A stretch of 64,000 nt of DNA from Candidatus Altimarinota bacterium. Its GTDB lineage: Bacteria; Patescibacteriota; Gracilibacteria; BD1-5; UBA2023. Positions 21,514 through 27,513 of this stretch are shown here, one piece after another (the stretch's first letter is position 1; each line of letters begins with the position of its first letter). The notes under the pieces are model-generated. The model was not told the DNA's origin. It saw only the letters and a program-made list of their open reading frames with translations, and did no database searches. The stretch spans positions 1 through 64,000 of the forward strand of contig JAQTWX010000002.1 of assembly GCA_028689065.1 (NCBI GenBank), read 5' to 3'. Position numbers and translations under genes: made by a program.

Positions 21514-22581
21514 ATGCTTACCTCCCTTACTCTTGGCTCATTCAAGAATCATTTGAACCGAGTATTTTTATGGAAAGAGAAAAATATACTGACTGGAGCA
21601 AACGGCTCTGGAAAAACCAATATACTTGAAGCTCTTTATCTTTTCGTAAACGCTATTCCTCCAACTGAAAGAACTTTTTTACAATTAGTTCCTTCTGATT
21701 CTTGAATACTTTCTCTCTCATGAGAATTTATAAAAAACAACCTTCCTTATAGTGGTGGGATTGGTTATACAAAAGGGGAGTCAAAGGTATGTTTTCTTTC
21801 TCAGGATACCCTCATTACACGATCTCGCCATAGGGATATACTTCCAATTCGGGCAGTTCTCTTTTCTCCCATGGAGATGAATATACTCTATCTCGGACCG
21901 AGTCTTAGGCGAGATTTTCTCGATGAAGCTATTACTCTCGCATATTCAGAATTTACAAAAGTAAAACGAGAATATACACTCGCTCTCAAGAATCGTAATA
22001 GTCTTCTGAAACAAATTCGAGAAGGAACGAGTATTCGAGATACTCTGGATTTATGGGATTCACTTTTTATAGAAAGAGCAAAGAATTATTACTCTTATCG
22101 AATAAAACTTATCAAATTCATACAAGAACGCATGAGTTCTATTGAACTTCTTTTGGAGTGAAAATACAAACTTACTTTTCAATACATAACAAAAATCGAT
22201 TTTCAAGATATAGAAACAAGTATGTTTGACTATCTTCGAGAAAATAGAGAACGTGATATTATTACTGGACACACATATATTGGGCCTCATCTCGATGATT
22301 TTCAATGTCTAATATCCGAAAATATTTCATCTAATGAATACCTCTCGCGAGGAGAAAATAAGACAATATTAATTGGTCTTAAATTTATCCTCATCGAATT
22401 TATTGAATATTCATCCAAAAAAGATACTATTCTTTTACTTGATGATCTCTTTTCTGAACTGGATACCGAGCATATAGAATCTATTCTCCTCTCTGCTGGA
22501 AAACGACAACTATTTATTACGACGCAAAATATGCCAAATTTCCTGACTGATAAAGATCAATTCTCATTTTATGAGATATAA
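21514..22581 (+). CDS. recF: DNA replication and repair protein RecF
   Basis: 355 residues with three UGA codons. Walker A is GANGSGKT at residues 28-35, the ABC-type signature is EYLSRGENKTILIGLK, and Walker B is TILLLDDLFSELD. The N-terminal LTSLTLGSFKNHLN resembles the RecF start. RecF helps load RecA at gaps. The central coiled part is short, as usual for RecF and unlike SMC. There is no dnaN or gyrB neighbour, so this is not the classic origin cluster. Confidence 0.85.
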
Positions 22582-24832: not shown

Positions 24833-25903
24833 TTATCTGTGAAACTTCCCATGAATCTCCTTTAGTTTCGGGTTTGTTATATGAGTATAGACCTGAGTTG
24901 TAGTAATAGAAGCATGTCCGAGAAGTTCTTGAATGGCTCTAATATCAGCACCGTTGGTTAGAAGGGTAGTGGCGAAACTATGTCGGAGCGTATGAGCTGA
25001 AACTTCTTTTATAATATTCGCTCGGAGGGCATATTCCTTAATCTTATTGGTGATAAAAAACCGCGTAAGTCGAACATCCACATCCGTAAGAGGTCTTTTT
25101 ATTACATCATTTCATTGTACTGATTTTGAATAGACATTATCAGTACTAAAATTATGACGAATAAAGAGGGAATTGAATGTATCTTTCTCACCAAGTTCCG
25201 ATTTTCTTGCCTCTAAATAAGTTTGAATTTTATCTACAGCCAAATCAGTCAAATATACCGTACGAATTTTACTTCATTTTCCACGAACACTAAATTCATG
25301 CGTATCCAAATTAATTGCTGTTTTATTCAATGCAGTGAGTTCTGAAATACGTAGACCCGTTGAATAAATACATTCAATAATAGCCGCATCACGTTTTCAT
25401 TGAATTGTACTTGTATCGATTTCATTAAAAATTCTCACAATTTCAGCAGTATCTAAGAAAGTTACTTCACGATCTTTTTGTTTTATAAGATCTATCGAAA
25501 CAGGATCTATAGATTCATATCATTGTTTTCGGCAAAATTTCAAAAAAGCCCGAAAAGTAATCATATATGCATTCGCTGTCTTTACCGATAGTCATTTTTC
25601 CGCTATATGAAGCCGAAACTCATTTAAATCGCTTATTTTGACGTTTTCAAGCTCGAGATGACAGTTATCTAGGAGAAAACGTTTTAAAATATCTTTTTCA
25701 GAACGTTTTATGGAATCTTCTGGCGATTCAAGGAAAATAAGCTCATGATTTATGGGCTTTCATTTAAACTCTGAAATCTCTGGTACTAAATACCAAAGAA
25801 ACTTTATTAAATGTCGTTCGTATTGTTCAACAGTTTTTAAACTCAGATTTTTATGTATTCGTATATATACGAGAAACTCATCGATAGCACGGACAAAATT
25901 CAT
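24833..25903 (-). CDS. xer: Tyrosine recombinase of the Xer family
   Basis: 356 residues with six UGA codons. An N-terminal SAM-like core-binding domain (FVRAIDEFLVYIRIHKNLSLKT) leads to the catalytic domain. The five active-site positions are visible: Arg in STGLRISEL, Lys in VRGKGSKIR (second Gly by UGA), HTLRH (His and Arg), His in LLGHAS, and Tyr in TTTQVYTHI. Xer recombinases resolve chromosome dimers at dif. A dif-like site lies 40 bp upstream of its start, as in single-recombinase systems such as XerS and XerH, so one protein probably does both XerC and XerD jobs here. Confidence 0.92.
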
Positions 25904-25924: not shown

Positions 25925-25946
25925 AAGTGATACATTTCTATCACTT
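25925..25946. repeat. Inverted repeat beside dif
   Basis: Arms AAGTGATA (25925-25932) and TATCACTT (25939-25946) around a 6-bp centre. The last four bases are also the first four of the dif site. It lies between dif and the xer start, so it could be an accessory binding site or an operator. Confidence 0.5.
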
Positions 25947-25970
25947 CACATAATGTAAGTTATGTGAAGT
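25943..25970. other. dif: Chromosome dimer resolution site (dif)
   Basis: 28 bp in the exact 11-6-11 layout of dif: arms ACTTCACATAA and TTATGTGAAGT, perfect inverted copies, around TGTAAG. The inner CATAA-TGTA and TTATG blocks match the inner halves of known bacterial dif sites. Location directly upstream of a Xer recombinase gene strengthens the call. Perfect arm symmetry fits a single recombinase. The site also suggests this part of the chromosome lies in the terminus. Confidence 0.8.
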
Positions 25971-26013
25971 ATTTTAAGTATAATATGGAGAATAGATGGA
26001 AATGCAAGTTTTG

Positions 26014-26036
26014 TTGCAAAAAAATGGTTTTTGCAA
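26014..26036. repeat. Inverted repeat over the barstar promoter -35
   Basis: TTGCAAAAA (26014-26022) and TTTTTGCAA (26028-26036) with a 5-bp centre. The right arm contains the TTGCAA -35 hexamer, so a bound protein would block the promoter. Confidence 0.45.
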
Positions 26037-26058
26037 ATTTAAAAAAACAGAATATACT
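26031..26058 (+). promoter_or_regulatory. Promoter TTGCAA-16-TATACT
   Basis: The -35 is at 26031-26036 and the -10 at 26053-26058, 64 nt ahead of the barstar-like gene. Confidence 0.6.
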
Positions 26059-26121
26059 TTTTCTGAAATAGAAAATAACTTTCTTAATTTTCACTCGATA
26101 ACTATTTTAATATAAAATTCT

Positions 26122-26382
26122 ATGTCCATTCTTAATTTTTCTCACATCCACACCAAATCCGAACTCATGGATACACTCGAGGTTTTTTTCTGACTCCCTA
26201 ACTTCTGGGGACGAAATTGGGATGCTTTTGGTGACTGTATAGCGGATAGAGAGTTCTCTACTCTCCCCTCTCAAGTTCAGATAATCGGGCTCGAAACCCT
26301 CCGAAAAAACTTCGGAGAAGATGCTCAGATTTTAGAGGAAATACTCGATGAAAACAGCATTAAGTATACTCTGCTTCGATAG
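26122..26382 (+). CDS. Barstar-family ribonuclease inhibitor
   Basis: 86 residues. HIHTKSELMDTLEVFFGLPNFWGRNWDAFGDCI is the barstar signature: the helix start, a Gly (UGA) before LP, then WGRNWDAF, where Asp and Trp contact barnase-type RNases. SQVQIIGLETLRKNFG fits the third strand and helix. Barstar proteins neutralise intracellular or incoming barnase-like toxins. No barnase-like gene is beside it, so it may be an immunity gene against outside toxins or act on a distant partner. Confidence 0.8.
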
Positions 26383-26528
26383 ATTTCTAGAAAAAAGATT
26401 TGCAAAAATATAAATTATACATACTATCCATCAGCTGTAAATTTCGGTTATCTCTCAAAATTCCTCAAATAAAATATAGGACTTAGAGATATTTATCAAA
26501 AACACAAATCCATACAGGGAGAAATATA

Positions 26529-27008
26529 ATGAAGGTGAAAACAATTCCGCTTTGTCGTTATTGTCTGAGAATCAAAAGTGGTGATACGATTCATTCTTCT
26601 ATTACTGCTGATGCTATTGATAGCGGTAAGGAATTTGACAGTATCACAAAATTGCAATCTTGGATTTTCCGAAATCCTTCATTGCAAAAAACAATGGCAA
26701 ATGATGTGCAGATTTTATTTCTTGCACAAATTGCCGGCACTGAAGATTTACCAGTCTATGCTGACTGTTTCGAGTTGCATTTTGCTTCATCGCTTTCATT
26801 TCTGGATATCGCAACTACTGAGAATTTCCTCTCGTGCCTGGAAGAAAATTCCCAAAACATGATGAAGAAACACTATTTGGCTGCTGCTGATTTCCTGGAA
26901 ACAAAAAAATCCCCGAGCATCATTGATCTGATTGTTTTCTTGAAAAATAAAGTTGTCGGTTTCCTTAAGGATTTCCGACAACTCACACCTACTCATTGGG
27001 TGGGTTAA
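26529..27008 (+). CDS. Hypothetical protein with atypical codon use, 159 aa
   Basis: ATG 26529 to TAA with a clear ribosome-binding site (AGGGAG) 9 nt upstream, which most genes here lack. It starts KVKTIPLCRYCLRIKSGDTIH with a CRYC pair and is otherwise helical. All five glycines use GGT or GGC, none GGA or UGA, and leucine is often TTG or CTG, unlike neighbours, which prefer GGA, CTT and CTC. This suggests recent transfer from a standard-code donor. It has its own terminator. No family recognised. Confidence 0.65.
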   Translation: MKVKTIPLCRYCLRIKSGDTIHSSITADAIDSGKEFDSITKLQSWIFRNPSLQKTMANDVQILFLAQIAGTEDLPVYADCFELHFASSLSFLDIATTENFLSCLEENSQNMMKKHYLAAADFLETKKSPSIIDLIVFLKNKVVGFLKDFRQLTPTHWVG

Positions 27009-27020
27009 TTCTCATCTATC

Positions 27021-27052
27021 GCGTCCTAAGTTCTGAACTAGGACGCTTTTTT
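27021..27052 (+). terminator. Terminator
   Basis: 8-bp stem GCGTCCTA / TAGGACGC, 10-nt loop, then six Ts. Confidence 0.85.
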
Positions 27053-27071
27053 ATATCCATAAAATCAAATT

Positions 27072-27095
27072 AAAAAGACCGTTTTCGGTCTTTTT
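27072..27095. terminator. Bidirectional terminator
   Basis: 10-bp perfect stem AAAAAGACCG / CGGTCTTTTT with a TTTT loop, just after the pilin-like gene on the minus strand. Confidence 0.8.
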
Positions 27096-27099
27096 AATT

Positions 27100-27513
27100 T
27101 TATCGGTATACCCATGGTGCCACACTATTGAGTATGAATCCTATCAGGAAGAGGAGGACGAGACCCGAGAGTACTTTCACGATTCTCTTTTTTGCATCTT
27201 CTGCTGCTGATTTATCGGCTCCAGAGATAGAATACTGAACACCAGAAACCACGAGCATGAGAACTCCGACGAGTGCGGTGATAAAGGTCGCATACTTGAT
27301 AAGTCCTTTGAAAATCGCCATAACACTTCCGAAACCAGACTGAACCGTACATTTATATTTCTTTGTTTCTGGAGTATCTCCTCCAATAGATGTACAACCC
27401 ATTCCAGGAATTTGTTCTGTAACAATCACTGTTGTTTCTGATGCAGCAAAAACATTTCCCGAACTAAATAATCCCAACAATATGAGACAAAAGAAAAGAA
27501 TAATTTTTTTCAT
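27100..27513 (-). CDS. VirB2/TrbC-like pilin candidate
   Basis: 137 residues. A signal peptide (IILFFCLILLGLFSSGNVFA) is followed by a short Cys-containing segment and two membrane helices. The link between them, VSGVQYSISGADKSAAEDAKKRIVKVLSGLVLLFLIG, is the conserved pattern of VirB2-like pilins common in CPR genomes. It lies 26 bp after the related larger gene. Possible roles are a secretion pilus subunit or part of DNA uptake, but no VirB4 ATPase is in view. Confidence 0.6.
   Translation of the reverse strand: MKKIILFFCLILLGLFSSGNVFAASETTVIVTEQIPGMGCTSIGGDTPETKKYKCTVQSGFGSVMAIFKGLIKYATFITALVGVLMLVVSGVQYSISGADKSAAEDAKKRIVKVLSGLVLLFLIGFILNSVAPWVYR

Follow-up and report, generated by a model that had tools for sequence, protein, structure and literature searches.

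Xer/dif systems with two recombinases or with a single one have been described in bacteria and archaea. XerCD/dif has a 28-bp site with CATAA and TTATG at the inner ends of its arms and involves FtsK-gamma; two recombinases act on arms that are only partly symmetric (PMC2731167, PMC3025954, PMC5357621). The archaeal XerA is a single recombinase acting on a symmetric 28-bp dif, unlinked to its gene in Thermococcales and predicted near xerA in Sulfolobales (PMC2958812). In streptococci and lactococci, the 356-aa single recombinase XerS is encoded by a gene adjoining difSL, a 31-bp site with an 11-bp centre and unlike arms, and in Helicobacter and Campylobacter the single recombinase XerH (354–362 aa) has its site, difH, near its gene, with imperfect arms (PMC5357621). 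The single recombinase XerL of the Legionellales is associated with a dif whose arms are perfectly symmetric. In L. pneumophila, a distance of more than 400 kb separates dif from xerL, and the arms of the site are described as without homology to known Xer-binding motifs (PMC9765430). In the open-access literature searched, we found no description of dif sites in CPR, Patescibacteria, or Gracilibacteria.

We analyzed a stretch of 64,000 nucleotides (hereafter the window) from the genome of a Candidatus Altimarinota bacterium (G000). It carries a 28-bp palindrome upstream of a gene for a tyrosine recombinase of the Xer type, whose product is named P0001 (table 1). We consider it very likely that this site is the chromosomal dif, served by one Xer recombinase alone, the product of the adjacent gene. 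A preliminary description of the sequence had recognized an 11-6-11 palindrome with CATAA/TTATG inner motifs as a dif architecture lying about 40 bp before an Xer gene. The sequence bears out this architecture, and the gap measures 39 bp. Like Xer/dif sites in general, this one is about 28 bp long, with inverted arms, a 6-bp centre, and a dif core. Its arms are symmetric at 11 of 11 bases, and the right arm is one base off that of the Frankia alni dif as printed in PMC3025954. As the window contains six perfect 11-6-11 palindromes, perfect symmetry was dropped as evidence by itself; what is remarkable is the sequence of the site and its copy number. The asymmetric spacer would give the site its polarity. 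An inverted repeat overlapping the left end of dif, GTGATA-CATTTC-TATCAC (25928–25945), was rejected as it is unconserved in four genus members.

Table 1. Features of the dif-xer locus (positions in the 64,000-nt window)
Feature	Position	Strand	Description	Basis
xer gene	24833..25903	-	XerC/D/A-type tyrosine recombinase, 356 aa in code 25	
Gap from dif to the xer start codon	25904..25942	.	39 bp, holds a T-C block	
dif site	25943..25970	.	28 bp, 11-6-11, ACTTCACATAA-TGTAAG-TTATGTGAAGT	sequence, copy number, conservation in relatives
Left arm	25943..25953	+	ACTTCACATAA, one predicted Xer monomer site	sequence, arm covariation in the family
Central spacer	25954..25959	+	TGTAAG, asymmetric; CTTACA on the xer sense strand	
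Right arm	25960..25970	+	TTATGTGAAGT	sequence, arm covariation
Possible -10 element of xer	25980..25985	-	TATTAT	sequence, genus alignment

The xer ORF contains six TGA codons, read as glycine in genetic code 25. An alternative in-frame ATG further upstream falls inside dif, and the relatives start where the ORF of table 1 does. In an alignment of five genus members, the T-C block of the gap reads TTTTGTCCCCT in three and carries two changes in the other two. P0001 combines a Phage_integrase domain and a SAM-like N-terminal domain. Residues R185, K209, H304, R307, H330, and Y339, which we take to be the catalytic set, are invariant among 20 aligned proteins of the family. Its nearest relatives belong to Candidatus Gracilibacteria, and the solved chains nearest in sequence are XerD and the archaeal XerA. 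P0001 nevertheless scores below every NCBIfam cut-off for XerD (219.2 bits vs. 329.6), XerC (209.6 vs. 335.15), XerA (186.7 vs. 220), and XerS (92.4 vs. 267); its E-value is 1.3e-12 for XerH versus 1.7e-29 for XerD. A structure model was used for fold confirmation only; its mean pLDDT is 83 and its pTM 0.56, and the part around residues 327–340 is of low confidence. Its best structural match was XerA (5hxy), with a large rmsd, probably because the domain orientation is uncertain. The genome also encodes an FtsK_gamma domain (E 1.7e-26).

Each of the described systems shares part of these features. With XerA/dif, the locus has in common one XerC/D-like recombinase and a 28-bp 11-6-11 site with few or no arm mismatches (PMC2958812), the recombinase being the only one in 11 of the 27 genomes of the family but not in G000 itself. 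It differs in that XerA has an archaeal host, FtsK-gamma is present here, and P0001 stays under the XerA cut-off. As in XerS/difSL, a single 356-aa recombinase and an adjoining site form a module; however, the site here is 28 bp long with a 6-bp centre, and the XerS score is below the cut-off. The resemblance to XerH/difH lies in a single recombinase of similar size and a site near its gene, whereas the site sequence is another one and P0001 is nearer to XerD and XerA than to XerH. XerL/dif likewise pairs a single recombinase with symmetric arms, but here site and gene are neighbors and the core is canonical. Finally, the locus shares with XerCD/dif the 28-bp site, its inner arms, and FtsK-gamma, but not the two recombinases and the partly symmetric arms of that system. 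The system of this family works like XerS, XerH, XerL, and XerA and, by the tests made, is no member of XerS, XerH, or XerL. It combines linkage and symmetric arms with a bacterial core of the canonical type and one protein that is XerCD/XerA-like. To our knowledge, a canonical symmetric dif with one recombinase and linkage has so far only been predicted for some archaea (Sulfolobales). The locus is best read as an Xer/dif module that has one recombinase and a canonical 28-bp site, works in the manner of XerA/dif, and resembles XerS and XerH in its linkage.

The core pattern ACATAA-STTACA-TTATGT, scanned with at most one mismatch, was found in 57 of the 77 genomes of the order, as one copy in 55 and two copies in 2; a reversed-pattern control matched in 3 of the 77. 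It occurs in none of 197 sampled genomes of the class outside the order, and a phylum sample of 378 other genomes gave a single positive. On these counts, the core is order-specific. In G000, the site gives a single match at up to three mismatches in 1,038,859 bases, and the reversed control gives none. The preliminary description had called for a motif present once per chromosome, and had named several copies, or a lack of conservation beside xer in relatives, as findings that would speak against it. Both were looked for and neither occurred: there is one copy in G000 and in 55 of the 57 site-positive genomes of the order, as in Xer/dif systems generally. An xer ortholog (match with E < 1e-100) is present in 68 of the 77 genomes. 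Both site and xer were found in 55 genomes, xer only in 13, the site only in 2, and neither in 7, the last three classes being inflated by incomplete assemblies. Genome G037, 94% complete, has neither, and the two genomes with two sites each (G046 and G079) gave no xer ortholog.

The family of the window (f1) comprises 27 genomes, 22 of them with the xer ortholog, and in 16 of these 22 the site lies 37–572 bp upstream of xer. The gap is 37–88 bp in 11 of the 16: 37 bp in G023, 39 bp in G000, G021, G022, and G024, about 48–60 bp in G011 depending on the start, 57 bp in G016, 72 bp in G014, 82 bp in G001, 86 bp in G002, and 88 bp in G012. It is 226–572 bp in the other five (226 in G005, 369 in G010, 523 in G009, 525 in G006, and 572 in G018). 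In G017, xer is at a contig end, and a twin gene on contig L070 (JAQUCU010000257.1, labelled Desulfuromonadaceae) has a site 197 bp upstream. This contig is probably misbinned, because it carries a Gracilibacteria xer at zero branch length from that of G017. In two further genomes (G003 and G008), contig ends interrupt the locus. G004, G013, and G026 are without close linkage (3 of 22); the site of G013, perfect though altered in sequence, is 9.3 kb from xer. A second family (f2) is linked in two of two cases, with a gap of 39 bp. Conversely, among the 48 genomes of a third family (f3), the 33 with both site and xer are all unlinked, 12–154 kb apart on 10 shared contigs and on different contigs in the remaining 23. 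Linkage is also seen at three loci of more distant origin, labelled Moraniibacteriota, with gaps of 209, 518, and 217 bp. In the Xer tree, f1 and f2, the latter on a long branch, group together (97/96) as sister to f3 (100/98), and the Moraniibacteriota loci fall outside. The dif beside xer of the preliminary description is therefore conserved in f1 and f2 but fails as a rule for CPR bacteria using code 25, as the unlinked f3 belongs to the same order.

The gene neighborhood is common to G000, G021, G023, and G024. Among 20 other loci, including that of G022 from the same genus, 13 share xer alone with the window and 7 have one or two extra scattered matches. Because the flanking genes are unshared beyond the four close species, the linkage is not merely inherited gene order; site and gene stay paired while their surroundings change. 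About 1.1 kb adjoining dif in the window (26016–27107) is missing in three close relatives, where about 57–88 bp separate the homologous blocks flanking it. This segment contains a Barstar homolog (26122–26382) and a 159-aa ORF (26529–27008) without Pfam match. In G022 (L062, 1–7628 and 8767–9897), homology to the window consists of dif and xer only, and the upstream DNA, read by eye, holds genes for ABC transporters and acetyltransferases, one Fic-like and one LD-carboxypeptidase-like gene. In G022, then, either the module changed place or the DNA around it was exchanged.

The preliminary description expected GC skew to flip at the site, which is partly supported. In three of the four f1 contigs, the cumulative GC-skew maximum lies 1–13.3 kb from dif; the fourth, contig C2 of G018, has no skew turn at the site. 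The distance is 13.3 kb in G000:C15 (131-kb contig, weak skew), 1.0 kb in G014:C4 (284-kb contig, weak signal), and 11.5 kb in G023:C1, where skew climbs overall across 505 of 534.6 kb up to the peak. In f3, the 971-kb contig G027:C3, identical to G058:C3 by site position, has its global skew maximum at 306.7 kb and the canonical site at 324.6 kb (324,620), a distance of 18 kb; a second, near-equal peak lies 4.0 kb from a dif-like motif near xer. In the single-contig f3 genome G071, the site is at 621 kb of 1,343,103 bp (46%), where a strong skew rise ends and the skew transition sets in, and the maximum is 76 kb beyond it, within the 400 kb covered. The f3 contigs agree loosely with a terminus position. 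Against a terminus position, dnaA and dif of G014 are separated by no more than 134 kb; skew does not, however, turn at dnaA in the stretch of G023:C5, and dnaA was therefore dropped as an origin marker. In the window, an ORF that looks RecF-like by eye (21514–22581) is found about 3.4 kb from dif, and dnaA of G000 is on another contig. The recF gene is usually found near the origin.

Thirteen of 21 f1 sites are perfectly symmetric. This set includes those of G013 and L070 and omits G026; the two f2 sites are in neither this set nor that of f3. The 14 distinct f1 arm pairs have 84 outer cells, of which 69 are symmetric where 56.7 (sd 2.8) would be expected, a value reached by none of 5000 shuffles that ignore kinship. 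The arms change together, as expected if one recombinase binds both, and this supports the proposal of the preliminary description that arm symmetry points to one recombinase. For f3, the set is made up only of sites within three mismatches of the symmetric 28-mer pattern; 13 of its 33 sites are perfect, and its arms show no significant covariation (79 symmetric cells of 120, with 76.1 expected, reached by 1134 of 5000 shuffles). Oriented to the core, the 21 f1 spacers read GTTACA (11), CTTACA (8), CTTATA (1), and GTCATA (1).

Exactly one PF00589 protein, the P0001 ortholog, is encoded in 11 of the 27 f1 genomes. The xer gene had been called lone, which is correct for its neighborhood and for these 11 genomes, but not for G000 itself, with four PF00589 tyrosine recombinases in total. 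One of them, at C15:86519-87247, has an XerC/D-like C-terminus, with C-terminal matches in G020 and G022, so that its distribution in the genus is patchy. With three further tyrosine recombinases, one of them XerC/D-like at its C-terminus, a second Xer partner is possible in G000. On these grounds the site could be a classical dif on which XerC and XerD both act, with just one of the two encoded next to it. We regard this as very unlikely, given the single PF00589 protein of the 11 genomes and the perfectly symmetric, covarying arms, which misfit two specificities. Two tyrosine recombinase genes lie tail to tail at G000:C7:170270-171389, with a like pair at G017:C16:63804-64927, and are possibly a mobile element.

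The palindrome might instead be mainly an operator in the leader of xer, bound by Xer to repress its own gene, with dif lying elsewhere. The short gap of 37–88 bp in 11 of the 16 linked f1 genomes is in line with this, as is a motif in f3: although dif is unlinked there, of 38 xer genes examined, 16 are preceded at a distance of up to 150 nt by ACATAA-N6-TTAT with no more than one mismatch, 14 of them exactly, against 3.3 expected by shuffles and 312 of 7089 random windows. On the other hand, G000 has no other dif candidate at up to three mismatches, the spacer of the site is conserved although an operator would not need it, and the same site is conserved far from xer in f3. Moreover, in five of the 16 linked f1 genomes 226–572 bp of other sequence separate site and gene, and an operator role cannot therefore be general. 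That the site is mainly an operator thus has little probability.

Self-regulation, raised in the preliminary description, may be plausible where the gap is 37–88 bp. On the xer sense strand, the possible -10 element is found some 10 bp past the site, reading TATTAT or TAATAT in four of five genus members. With such an element, the xer transcript would contain dif at about +3 to +30. A promoter scan beside xer returned none that was convincing and did not list this TATTAT. The f3 motif near xer reads AGTTAACATAATATTTATTATTTTAAGT. In 11 of the 16 cases its spacer is TATTTA or nearly so, and as this differs from the f3 dif spacer, mostly GTTATA or GTTACA, these motifs should not recombine with dif. 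They suggest, in one clade of f3, an operator derived from dif or shared with it. The motif of G027 was dropped as a candidate dif of that genome and is read as operator-like, because the canonical site lies on the same contig near the global skew maximum. In two f3 loci (L079 and L077), the dif-like motif overlaps the xer start codon and its right arm encodes the first residues. We tentatively propose, as a possibility short of an even chance, that in f1 and f2 dif may serve for recombination and at the same time be the operator of the only xer, Xer tuning its own supply. In f3, the two roles would be split, the true dif being 12–154 kb or more away, and one clade would keep the TATTTA-spacer motif as a pure operator.

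Variable DNA adjoins the site: the 1.1-kb segment of the window is missing in three close relatives, and homology with G022 ends at the site and does not resume past xer. Such a pattern could arise if a mobile element used the site for attachment and the gene were its integrase. This is highly improbable, however, as the P0001 ortholog is the sole tyrosine recombinase of 11 of the 27 f1 genomes and has orthologs in 68 of the 77 genomes of the order. Furthermore, the G022 genes beside the site, from ORFs read by eye, are neither phage nor plasmid genes, and six viral contigs with exact core matches carry no xer in the stretches examined. A phage-borne mimic of dif, which these matches might suggest, was set aside; in one of the viral contigs, L304, the core match lies inside a 1304-aa ORF. 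Lastly, the palindrome folds well as RNA (-14.3 kcal/mol, z about -4) and a pattern scan lists it as terminator-like, but a role in the xer transcript as intrinsic terminator or as RNA hairpin is hardly credible, since any 11-bp palindrome folds, six are present in the window, the stem has only three G-C pairs, and the conserved part is the inner bases and the spacer, matching dif.

As the single-recombinase module, the 28-bp site very probably serves to separate fused chromosomes before division. From the features above, we infer Xer binding, catalysis, dimer resolution, its timing, and its dependence on FtsK. Once two sister chromosomes have been fused into a dimer by recombination, their dif copies would come together where the cell divides. 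The four arms, being alike, would each be bound by an identical Xer monomer to form a synapse, and strand exchange across the 6-bp spacer would then separate the chromosomes. FtsK would pump the DNA and, through its XerD-activating gamma domain, switch the reaction on. Given such arms, it would be the asymmetric spacer (STTAYA) and FtsK, not two different recombinases, that decide which strands are exchanged first.

Consisting of one gene and 28 bp, the module is small enough for testing in E. coli, and dif may provide a terminus marker for uncultured genomes. As the order has both linked (f1 and f2) and unlinked (f3) versions of the site, it offers a natural series on what holds site and gene together in systems with a single recombinase. 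It seems that in the reduced genomes of Patescibacteria chromosome dimers are resolved by one recombinase acting at a symmetric dif of the canonical type.
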